From NCBI GenBank assembly GCA_002238605.1, contig MPMR01000003.1, positions 186,001 through 250,000 on the forward strand: a stretch of 64,000 bases of DNA, in the 5' to 3' direction. Each line of letters opens with the position of its first letter. Within the stretch, counting starts at the first letter, position 1. The stretch is from BD2-11 clade cluster bacterium bin43 (GTDB lineage: Bacteria > Gemmatimonadota > Gemmatimonadetes > Longimicrobiales > Gaopeijiaceae). Shown piece by piece: positions 54,940 through 58,523 of this stretch. Position numbers and translations under genes: made by a program. The notes beneath the pieces are model-generated. The model saw nothing but the letters and a program-made list of their open reading frames with translations. It was not told the origin of the DNA and searched no databases.

Positions 54940-56811
54940 TCAGGACGCGCCGGAGCCTCCGCCCAGCGCCCGCGCCAACGCCGCGCGCCCTCCCACGACG
55001 GGCAGGTCGAGGGCGGTTGCGGCCAGGTCGACGGTGAGCCGGGTCCCCGGCTCGGGGTGGAGGGTGAAGTCGGCGTCGCTGGAGAAAACCATGAGCCCGA
55101 TGCGCTGTCCGGCGGGGATGATCTGGTCGTCGGGCTGCAGGTCGAAGGCGACATCGACGAACTCGCCCGGGACCAGCGGCGCGCTCTCGCTGAGCGATGC
55201 CGCGTTCTGCGGGTCGGCCCAGCCGCGCGTGATCAGGTTGTCGTTGATGGGGGCGCCCTCGGTCCAGGGGAGCGACACCAGCCATACCGAGAGGTTGGCG
55301 GCGGCGCGGTCGGCCGCGAGGCGGAGCGAGACGCGGGCGAGGCCGGACAGATGCACTTCTTCGGCGAGTTCGGGGGTCGCGAACAGCAACCGGTGCTCCG
55401 AGGCCTCCGCCCCGGCCAGGTCGGCGCCGGAGAAGCTCACGTCGTCGGTGAACGACTGCTGCGCGGCGGCGGGATCGGCCTCGAGCGAGAGCATCCCCTG
55501 TCTCCCCCCGTCGCCGGAGGGGACCACGCGCACGGACTCCGCGTCGGGGTTGGGATAGGAAGGATAGGGCGTGGGGCTCAGGCGGTCGTCGCCCTCTCGC
55601 ACGATCCACGCGCCCGGATCGCTCTCCACCCCGTTCTCGACTCCGTACAGGTACCGGGAGAGCCAGCGGTTCATGAGGCTGAGCGGCGGCTCGCCCCCGT
55701 GGCCCCCCTGATGGTAGTACGCCTGCACCGGCACGCCGCGGTCGCGCAGCGCGGCCACGATCCGGTAGCTGTGCTCGGGCATCACGTTCCAGTCGTTGAA
55801 GCCGTGCGCCATGAGCGTCGGGGCGCGCACGCCGTCGACATGGTTGAGGTAGTCGCGGCCCGCCCAGAAGTCGTTGTAGTCCCCGGAGGCGCGGTCGAAG
55901 CGCGCCTGCATGAGGTCGCTTCGCACGGTCTGGTTGCAGTAGTCGCGGCGCTCCATCGGGCCGCTGTTGATGAAATCGTAGAGGACGTCGATGTCCTCGC
56001 CGGGGTAGCCGCCCGGTGACCGCACCAGCCCATGCGACCGGTAGTAGTGGTAGTACGACGTGTTGGGCGCCACCGGGATGATGGCCTCAAGCCCCTCCAC
56101 GCCCGTCGTTGCGGCGGCGAGCGGCAGGGTGCCGTTGTAGGAGGTCCCGATCATGCCCACGCTGCCGGTCGACCAGTAGGCGCTCACCTCCTCCCCGCCC
56201 TCCACGGCGGTGAAGCCGCGCGCTCGCCCGTTCAGCCAGTCGATCACCGCCTTGGGCGCGAGGGACTCGTTCTCGCCGCCGACGGTGGGGCAGCCCTGGG
56301 ACTGTCCCGTCCCGGGCGACTGCGAGTGCACAACCGCGAACCCGCGCGGCACCCAGGTGCCGATGTGGGAGTTCGAGATGACCGGCTGCTCCTCGATGTG
56401 CTCCATCGCGGGCATCACGGTGCGGGGAGGCGGGGGCGCGCCCACCTCCTGGCGGATGTCCCAGAAGTAGTCGAAGTCGAGGCCGCCGGTACCGGAATAG
56501 TACGGGCTGGTCTCGTAGATCACGGCGACCTCAAGCCCGGATTCGGTCGCGGCGGGGCGGGTCACGTCCACATGCACCCGGTCGGACGCGCCGTCCCCGT
56601 CGGAATCAAAGCCGGTCTCGACCCAGAGTTCGTGCCGCACCCAGGTGGCCGAATCGGCGAACTCCGGAACGACCTGCGCCTCCCCGTTCTCGAAGACGGG
56701 CCTGGGGCCGTCGTAGCAGGCCGCGGCGAGCAGGGGCAGAGAGGCGCCGAGTACGCATGTCCGCGCGAGGGAGAGCGGACTCGGGCGGCGGATGGGAAGG
56801 ATCTTCTTCAT
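54940..56811 (-). CDS. CocE/NonD (X-Pro dipeptidyl-peptidase S15-like) hydrolase lipoprotein
   Basis: A 623-residue protein with a lipobox (LLAAAC). Catalytic Ser is in GTSYNGTLP (near residue 222), Asp in HGFNDWNVMPEHS (near 341) and His in HQGGHGGEPP (near 370). A C-terminal beta domain (VSLRLAADRAAANLSVWLV) is the family's jelly-roll. These enzymes hydrolyse X-Pro peptides or esters such as cocaine; the substrate here is unknown. Confidence 0.85.
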   Translation of the reverse strand: MKKILPIRRPSPLSLARTCVLGASLPLLAAACYDGPRPVFENGEAQVVPEFADSATWVRHELWVETGFDSDGDGASDRVHVDVTRPAATESGLEVAVIYETSPYYSGTGGLDFDYFWDIRQEVGAPPPPRTVMPAMEHIEEQPVISNSHIGTWVPRGFAVVHSQSPGTGQSQGCPTVGGENESLAPKAVIDWLNGRARGFTAVEGGEEVSAYWSTGSVGMIGTSYNGTLPLAAATTGVEGLEAIIPVAPNTSYYHYYRSHGLVRSPGGYPGEDIDVLYDFINSGPMERRDYCNQTVRSDLMQARFDRASGDYNDFWAGRDYLNHVDGVRAPTLMAHGFNDWNVMPEHSYRIVAALRDRGVPVQAYYHQGGHGGEPPLSLMNRWLSRYLYGVENGVESDPGAWIVREGDDRLSPTPYPSYPNPDAESVRVVPSGDGGRQGMLSLEADPAAAQQSFTDDVSFSGADLAGAEASEHRLLFATPELAEEVHLSGLARVSLRLAADRAAANLSVWLVSLPWTEGAPINDNLITRGWADPQNAASLSESAPLVPGEFVDVAFDLQPDDQIIPAGQRIGLMVFSSDADFTLHPEPGTRLTVDLAATALDLPVVGGRAALARALGGGSGAS

Positions 56812-56862: not shown

Positions 56863-56904
56863 AATGGAGCCAGCCGGAATCGAACCGGCGACCTCCTGCT
56901 TGCA
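56863..56904 (-). repeat. Detached 3' part of tRNA-Ala; putative distal attachment site
   Basis: These 42 bp are identical to 57646-57687 in the same orientation. They correspond to the tRNA from its anticodon to the discriminator base plus 2 bp, without any 5' half. The match ends abruptly on both sides, as expected for an integrative-element attachment site, not a second tRNA gene. Confidence 0.82.
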
Positions 56905-57035
56905 GAAGCTCGTGACCGACGGGACGGGAACACCACCGGTGGCCAAAGTTACTCGGCACATCGTGGGGAAACAACGCGGATGTAGCCTCGGCAGCGGCAG
57001 GCCCTCCGACCGGCACGGTGCGCAGGGAGGGTCCC

Positions 57036-57062
57036 TTGACAGCCCCTTTTTTGTAGTAACAT
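57036..57062 (+). promoter_or_regulatory. Promoter of brnTA (leaderless type)
   Basis: TTGACA (57036-57041), 15 bp, then TAACAT (57057-57062). The ATG follows 6 nt later, so the mRNA would start at the start codon. The region is AT-rich compared with its surroundings. BrnA may autoregulate here, as in known systems. Confidence 0.45.
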
Positions 57063-57068
57063 TAATTC

Positions 57069-57338
57069 ATGCGGATCGAGTTCGACGACGCGAAACGCGC
57101 CGAGACGATCAAGGCCCGAGCACTGGATATGGCCCGGGCCGCAGACGTGTTCGCCGGCTCGACGCTGACCACTGAGGATGACCGACGGGACTACGGCGAG
57201 ATTCGCTACATCACCATCGGTTTTCTTGACGAGACGATGGTGGTACTCGTCTGGACGCCCCGCGATCGCGCACACAGGATCATCAGCATGAGGAGGGCCA
57301 ATGAACGAGAACGACGGCTCTACGGCCCGAGGTTTTGA
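57069..57338 (+). CDS. brnT: BrnT-family ribonuclease toxin
   Basis: An 89-residue protein with the BrnT pattern: an N-terminal FDDAKR, then DDRRDYGEIRYITIGFLD, VVLVWTPRD and the C-terminal RIISMRRANERERRLY. BrnT is a RelE-fold ribonuclease that stops growth unless bound by BrnA. It lies upstream of brnA, with a 38-nt overlap, the normal order. It is inside the tRNA-bounded island. Confidence 0.88.
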   Translation: MRIEFDDAKRAETIKARALDMARAADVFAGSTLTTEDDRRDYGEIRYITIGFLDETMVVLVWTPRDRAHRIISMRRANERERRLYGPRF

Positions 57339-57558
57339 CCCCGAGACCGCACCCGACCTCTCAAAGGACGGCTGGCCGGAGAAGTTCGCCAAGGCGCCCG
57401 TACGCCGGGGACGTCCTCGGAAGGCGCGGCCGAAAATATCGACCACCATCCGGCTGTCCCAGGAGGTCATCGACCACTTTCGCGCCGGAGGGCGCGGTTG
57501 GCAGACACGGATCGACCACGCACTGCGCGACTGGATCAAGCGGCACGACGTTGCCTGA
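57301..57558 (+). CDS. brnA: BrnA-family antitoxin
   Basis: An 85-residue protein. The basic middle part (RRGRPRKARPKIS) leads to a ribbon-helix-helix-like DNA-binding region (TTIRLSQEVIDHFRAGG) and the C-terminal WQTRIDHALRDWIKRH, matching BrnA. It neutralises BrnT and represses the pair. Start ATG 57301 lies within brnT. Confidence 0.85.
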   Translation: MNENDGSTARGFDPETAPDLSKDGWPEKFAKAPVRRGRPRKARPKISTTIRLSQEVIDHFRAGGRGWQTRIDHALRDWIKRHDVA

Positions 57559-57645
57559 GGCGAAACTCCCGCGAGGTCGTTGAGTCGAGCGAACCCGAAG
57601 GGGCGCGCCATTGACCCGCGCACGGCTGGCCAACTTCGCCACCTC

Positions 57646-57687
57646 AATGGAGCCAGCCGGAATCGAACCGGCGACCTCCTGCTTGCA
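57646..57687 (-). repeat. Proximal copy of the 42-bp repeat, inside tRNA-Ala
   Basis: This copy contains the 3' 40 nt of the tRNA-Ala gene and 2 bp beyond it. It is identical to 56863-56904 and marks the likely proximal attachment site of the island. Confidence 0.82.
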
Positions 57688-57720
57688 AAGCAGGCGCTCT
57701 CCCGACTGAGCTATGGCCCC
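57648..57720 (-). tRNA. tRNA-Ala (anticodon TGC)
   Basis: A complete 73-nt cloverleaf beginning GGGGCCATAGCTC. The anticodon stem CCTGC/GCAGG carries the loop TTTGCAA with anticodon TGC; the T arm contains GGTTCGAATCC and the acceptor ends GGCTCC plus discriminator A. CCA is not encoded. Its 3' part is copied at 56863-56904. Confidence 0.96.
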
Positions 57721-57926: not shown

Positions 57927-58523
57927 ATGTCCGCCGCCCGAACATCCCTCCCGGGAGCCGTCTTCCTCGACCTCTACGGCACGGTCGCGCGCGAGGTGGG
58001 CTACATCAATCATCCCGACCGCTTCCGCCTGCACGACTTCTCGGGCGAGGCCATACACCTGCTCAACCAGGCCGGCTACCGGGTGTTCGTGGCCACCAAC
58101 CAGTCGGGGATCGCGCGCGGATACTTCACCGAGGACGTGCTGAACGAGGTGCACCGCCGCCTGGTCGACGGGCTGGCGCGCGACGGAGCACGCGTGGAGG
58201 CCGTGTACCACTGCCCGCATCTCCCTCCCGAGGGAAGGCCTGCGGTGTGCGACTGCCGCAAGCCCCTTCCGGGGATGCTGCACAGGGCGGCGCGCGAGTA
58301 CGGGGTGGACCTGGCCTCGTCCTGGATGGCCGGGGACATGATTACGGACGTGGAGACCGGACATGCCGCGGGGGCGCGCGGGATTCTGCTGCGCACCGGC
58401 TACGGGCGTGGCCAGATCGAGTATCAGCGCCATCGCTGGCGCGTCGAGCCCGACCTGATCTGCGACGATCTGCTCGCGGCCGCACACGCGATCGCGGCCG
58501 CGCCGCCGAAGGACCCCCGGTGA
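57927..58523 (+). CDS. gmhB: GmhB-like HAD phosphatase with altered catalytic motif
   Basis: A 198-residue HAD-IIIA protein. ATNQSGIARGYF and the zinc loop YHCPHLPPEGRPAVCDCRKP identify the D-glycero-D-manno-heptose-1,7-bisphosphate 7-phosphatase family, which supplies ADP-heptose for LPS. The nucleophile motif is DLYGT (Asp15, Tyr17) instead of DxDGT, so the acid/base aspartate is missing; a GAC-to-TAC change at codon 57975-57977 would explain it. The kinase gene for the preceding step follows directly. Confidence 0.85.
   Translation: MSAARTSLPGAVFLDLYGTVAREVGYINHPDRFRLHDFSGEAIHLLNQAGYRVFVATNQSGIARGYFTEDVLNEVHRRLVDGLARDGARVEAVYHCPHLPPEGRPAVCDCRKPLPGMLHRAAREYGVDLASSWMAGDMITDVETGHAAGARGILLRTGYGRGQIEYQRHRWRVEPDLICDDLLAAAHAIAAAPPKDPR

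Follow-up and report, generated by a model that had tools for sequence, protein, structure and literature searches.

Positions 56863-57720 of the analysed DNA (the window, i.e. the whole stretch of 64,000 nucleotides, on contig G000:C37 of the 4.47-Mb draft genome G000 of a marine Gemmatimonadota bacterium) hold a brnTA toxin-antitoxin pair enclosed between a tRNA-Ala(TGC) gene and a displaced copy of its 3' part. This feature is likely to be a stripped remnant of a tyrosine-recombinase island, inserted into the 3' end of the tRNA gene before the genus diversified. The integration layout, the empty site of a relative, and the missing recombinase and P' arm were observed directly. Related islands keep a recombinase tail and a tRNA-side (P') arm, and because the island in the window has neither, it is regarded as stripped. 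Of the options put forward in an earlier note on this DNA, a stripped remnant gives the best fit.

Layout of the interval and its toxin-antitoxin pair

The earlier note described a 42-bp copy of the tRNA-Ala 3' part and the intact gene bracketing only brnTA in 0.8 kb, and this description proved exact (Table 1). The two copies of the direct repeat are 100% identical and spaced 783 bp. A perfect match of 42 bp inside 6 kb is far above chance; the other same-length direct-repeat pair there has an identity of 71%. Copy 2 covers the last 40 nt of tRNA-Ala(TGC), beginning in the anticodon loop, and 2 additional nt. Copy 1 is a fragment only, and no second tRNA gene was called at that place. The neighbours outside the repeats are an S15 peptidase gene on the left (54940-56811, minus) and a gene for a gmhB-like HAD phosphatase on the right (57927-58523, plus).

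Table 1. Features of the tRNA-Ala island in the window.
Feature	Position	Strand	Evidence
Outer attachment-site half, attR-like (displaced tRNA-Ala 3' fragment)	56863..56904	+	42/42 identical to 57646-57687
Conserved ~85-bp inner arm beside the fragment	56905..56989	+	88-94% identical in G002, G004, G007, G009
Putative brnTA promoter/operator-like stretch (TTGACA ... GTAGTAACATTAAT)	57037..57064	+	Conserved upstream of compared brnTA copies
brnT, 89-aa type II toxin, predicted ribonuclease of the RelE/BECR type	57069..57338	+	PF04365, E 3e-21
brnA, antitoxin, 85 aa	57301..57558	+	PF14384, E 4e-19
Right spacer	57559..57645	+	Recombinase tail and tRNA-side (P') arm here in related islands; neither in the window
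Inner attachment-site half, attL-like, second 42-bp copy, within the intact tRNA	57646..57687	+	Repeat match
Intact tRNA-Ala(TGC), integration target	57648..57720	-	ARAGORN; Rfam RF00005, 73.8 bits

As in tRNA-integrated genomic islands, an intact tRNA gene stands at one end and a direct-repeat 3' fragment at the other; a site-specific recombinase of its own, also characteristic of such islands, is lacking. The interval examined between the repeats contains only brnT and brnA and no recombinase gene, not even its tail, in agreement with the earlier statement that no integrase is present. The right spacer matches neither the P' arm nor the recombinase. No other strong match to it was found in the 11 genus genomes, among which it is confined to the window genome. 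The arm beside the displaced fragment (the outer arm in the following) is probably an arm-binding region of the recombinase.

BrnT and BrnA are encoded in one operon with the toxin first, as in BrnT/BrnA type II toxin-antitoxin systems, and the reading frames overlap by 38 bp. Both proteins score above the Pfam cut-offs (75.9 bits against 34.5 for BrnT, 69.1 against 26.1 for BrnA). PADLOC and NCBIfam gave no match for either of them; in a PDB sequence search BrnA had no match and BrnT a single weak one (7vd7, E 0.006). The dN/dS values, which average across mobile and resident history, are 0.16-0.39 for brnT (against 12 homologues) and 0.05-0.13 for brnA (against 14 homologues). Both genes are under purifying selection and have therefore been maintained. 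The closest relationship is with the copy at the same tRNA-Ala in G007, to which the window brnTA is sister (support 0.89). The two share the BrnA residues RPR and KIS, and brnT in G007 has lost its start codon (ATA).

Among named records, BrnA matches were found in Candidatus Palauibacter and other Gemmatimonadota MAGs, and on this ground the genus is taken to be Palauibacter-like. In addition, BrnA sequences 67-95% identical (L130-L175) occur in MAGs labelled Gemmatimonadetes, Acidobacteria, Latescibacterota, Caldilineaceae, Rhodobacteraceae and Gammaproteobacteria. Their spread across these labels would point to extensive horizontal transfer, provided that it does not stem from a large number of mis-binned or mislabelled contigs; the cross-phylum labels among the 62 BrnA loci may include mis-binned contigs. 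Among close brnTA copies, about half have brnT partly deleted or broken, with an intact promoter and brnA (L133, L135, L141, L150, L152, L153, L157 and L158 among them); this count is biased, because BrnA was the query of the collection search. Where copies without the toxin were tested, BrnA dN/dS is still low. The converse, a close full-length brnT that lacks brnA, was not seen in the genus.

The tRNA-Ala site in sister genomes

Comparison with the genomes of the genus, which are drafts and most or all of them MAGs, revealed a hot spot for islands between the S15 peptidase gene and the gmhB-like gene (11 genomes). The tRNA-Ala adjoins the gmhB-like gene in all 11, and the peptidase gene lies on the other side in each of the 10 with sequence there; the two sides are on separate contigs in G004. 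An empty site with a single repeat copy in a close relative, the check asked for by the earlier note, is present and precise: in G005 a single tRNA copy is located 50 bp from the peptidase start (G005, L067).

Elsewhere the site is occupied by different cargo. The distance from fragment to intact tRNA is 1387 bp in G007, with brnTA and an unknown ORF; 1107 bp in G002, with a nucleotidyltransferase and a truncated HepT-like gene (a degenerate HepT/MntA pair); and 3766 bp in G009, with a GmrSD restriction enzyme. The ends of the G004 island, which carries beta-propeller-like genes, are on different contigs. In G003, G010, G001 and G008 a hicAB-like sequence is found at the site, and HicA of G003 matches Pfam. 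The 42-bp fragment occurs at the same place in G002, G004, G007 and G009, and in a degraded form in the four genomes with hicAB-like sequence (P 0.004-0.01 in G001, G003 and G008, the three tested). Remnants of brnT or brnA were detected at the same tRNA in G003, G010 and G006, and a short stretch in G001. Sister species have the site empty or occupied by other defence genes.

The anticodon loop of the tRNA-Ala reads TTGCA in G000, G004 and G005 and GTGCA elsewhere (L067, L068 and L073 compared). Another gmhB-rfaE locus of the window genome (L045, on the 5.5-kb contig G000:C63) is divergent, and includes a hicAB-like sequence and a tRNA-Ala that has lost one anticodon-loop base. This locus is a duplicate, an acquired locus or contamination.

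The outer arm is common to five genomes at this locus (G000, G002, G004, G007 and G009), and was found only at the tRNA-Ala locus in the 11 genus and 121 family genomes searched. Genomes that are more alike in the flanking genes are also more alike in this arm (Mantel r 0.87, exact P 0.03), in a test of five taxa and with an unrooted species tree of two flanking genes. Since the divergence of the arm follows the species tree, the insertion appears to be old and inherited. In the flanking-gene tree G005, with its empty site, groups among the arm-bearing genomes, although the internal nodes have weak support (0.6-0.85). Taken together, arm divergence and the position of G005 suggest that the insertion is most likely ancestral in the genus, and that the empty site of G005 is probably a later, precise loss. 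Vertical inheritance of the insertion is supported, short of proof.

Separate integrations that recurred with the same arm and different cargo, in place of one old island remodelled where it stands, are considered unlikely. Cargo does differ in most species, the fragment is unusually fresh, and the tRNA of G004 departs from its fragment at an anticodon-loop base, which would follow from the arrival of a new element with a core of its own. The agreement between arm divergence and species tree argues against recurrence, however, as do the restriction of the arm to one locus and the sister relationship of the window and G007 operons at the tRNA-Ala site. As for the freshness of the fragment, it is conserved at 40-42 of 42 positions, more than the arm (78-93%) and more than the outer flank, an excess over its neighbours that would not be expected from neutral decay alone. 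The excess is most simply explained by gene conversion from the intact tRNA; constraint may be the cause instead.

Related islands at tRNA-Pro and their recombinases

The genes for tRNA-Pro(TGG) and tRNA-Ala have the core CCGGAWTCGAACCGGCGACCTCCTGC in common, up to one base. In the fetched DNA, a gene or fragment of one of these tRNAs lies near 14 of the 62 BrnA loci, in uniform orientation to brnTA, the events not being independent. Tandem structures occur: in L142 the order is fragment, brnTA and intact tRNA-Pro, the last at 4 kb from the fragment, and L242/L243 show two fragments followed by the intact gene. A related recombinase gene is at L243:2982-4385. The larger tRNA-Pro islands include brnTA and, besides conserved attachment arms, a complete tyrosine recombinase (PF00589, E 7e-17). 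One conserved arm follows the fragment and another, P', precedes the intact tRNA; in G067, G003, G007 and others, about 45-50 bp separate the end of the recombinase from tRNA-Pro.

The tRNA-Ala island of G004 ends with a P' arm of the tRNA-Pro type (91% over 64 bp), preceded by the tail of the same recombinase. This is direct evidence that a single recombinase family uses tRNA-Ala as well as tRNA-Pro, genes that have their 3' core in common. The layout had been read in the earlier note as that left by site-specific integration, a reading upheld by the empty site in G005, by the arm and recombinase tail in G004, and by integrase-bearing brnTA islands at the similar tRNA-Pro. Simple tandem duplication, also raised there, fares badly. 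It would mean a duplicated tRNA 3' end with a chance insertion of brnTA, and no site-specific recombination. A partial tRNA repeat by itself could come from duplication, but this repeat starts in the anticodon loop and stops where the tRNA does at its 3' end, the pattern of tRNA-integrating elements, and with the G004 arm and tail at the same tRNA and the precise empty site in G005 such an origin is extremely improbable.

In G034, L159 and L173, brnA is followed by a bare recombinase tail and tRNA-Pro, so reduction of an island to its brnTA side seems to have occurred more than once. An intermediate that would show the lost recombinase was not found at tRNA-Ala in the window species. Homology of Ala-type and Pro-type outer arms was rejected, their similarity not being significant (P 0.09-0.89); the founding recombinase at tRNA-Ala may therefore have been a different relative.

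The recombinase family is greatly expanded: searches of the genomes gave about 30 matches to it in the window genome and, in G010, 40, most of them with identities of 65-76%. Of the loci fetched (L265-L282), one pair in G000 converges on tRNA-Ile, and one gene is beside tRNA-Val. The rest are without a neighbouring tRNA, and several of them form pairs. At G000:C32:25106 and 67649, an intact tRNA-Val with an adjacent recombinase and a tRNA-like fragment are 42 kb apart, and may bound a large island. A viral origin was also considered and rejected, as neither BrnA nor the recombinase was found to have a relative in viral contigs.

These paralogues are relevant for the other option of the earlier note, a small element whose movement depends on a helper. 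A non-autonomous mini-element could still be moving if one of the ~30 related recombinases acted in trans on both tRNA-derived sites. The perfect 42-bp sites, the paralogues themselves (two beside tRNA-Ile, one beside tRNA-Val) and the precise loss in G005 agree with this. Nevertheless, we find it quite unlikely: the left arm, searched in 121 family genomes besides the 11 of the genus, and the right spacer, searched in those 11, occur at the tRNA-Ala locus only, on which ground a small mobile cassette was rejected; the right spacer is confined to the window genome; the tRNA-side arm of related integrase-bearing islands is missing; arm and operon look vertically inherited; and homologous recombination between the repeats explains the G005 loss equally well. 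It is highly unlikely, too, that bare brnTA is a mobile unit, moved in trans between tRNA-Ala and tRNA-Pro of sponge-associated bacteria by the expanded tyrosine-recombinase family (about 30-40 paralogues in some genomes).

Proposed origin of the island and comparison with known systems

For the preferred origin as a stripped remnant, the following course is proposed. A recombinase-bearing island would have entered the 3' end of tRNA-Ala(TGC) in the ancestor of the genus, pushing aside the 3' part that the tRNA had before (today at 56863-56904), and the attachment site of the island would have rebuilt the gene. Island cargo would then have turned over between lineages. In the window lineage, later deletion presumably removed the recombinase, the tRNA-side arm and all other cargo, and left brnTA and the outer arm; we infer these steps from a larger integrase-bearing island to the present form. 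The operon is presumably still expressed, with the BrnT ribonuclease held by BrnA. The toxicity of BrnT may have helped to keep the pair, and retention by addiction is plausible, although addiction did not prevent loss or decay of brnTA in sister lineages. The two genomes that keep brnTA at the tRNA-Ala site are without another full-length close brnA, and five genomes that lost it have one; this pattern of protection is not significant (Fisher about 0.27) and therefore a hint only. Full island, reduced island, bare toxin-antitoxin pair and precise loss form a comparative series at tRNA genes of sister species, which makes the question whether toxin-antitoxin genes hold decaying islands directly testable.

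Tycheposons are marine and tRNA-targeted and have variable cargo, as has the window island. Unlike them, the island has no phage packaging or replication gene, and its brnA and the recombinase are without relatives in viral contigs. Tycheposons are listed among marine satellite families (PMC11389934).

CIMEs are cis-mobilizable elements, i.e. decayed ICEs or IMEs that kept attL and attR and lost the genes for integration and transfer (PMC5704250). The island resembles them in being bounded, at the 3' end of a tRNA, by an attachment-site half on either side, in having no recombinase and no transfer genes, and in its integrase-bearing relatives. It differs in its size of only 783 bp, in its single operon, and in the loss of the tRNA-side arm. 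Of the two attachment sites kept in CIMEs, the core repeats and the outer arm are present here and the tRNA-side arm is not detectable; because of this loss its mobilisability is doubtful. Conjugation or phage genes were not identified, and the parent may have been an ICE, an IME or a phage satellite.

The operon is similar to brnTA of Brucella abortus (PMC5086665, PMC11980606) in its toxin-antitoxin order, both Pfam families and overlapping genes. Asp6 and Lys9, residues named in Brucella BrnT (PMC5086665), are at the same positions in the window protein, whereas residue 7 is Glu in Brucella and Asp in the window. The Brucella structure 3U97 was not retrieved by sequence search with the window proteins. 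Finally, a composite island of 48 kb with hipAB at tRNA-Trp of Shewanella putrefaciens excises with its integrase (PMC8978831). Both there and in the window, a toxin-antitoxin operon is placed inside an island at a tRNA gene, where it is proposed to hinder loss; in the window, in contrast to the 48-kb island, the pair is all that remains, and its stabilising role is putative.
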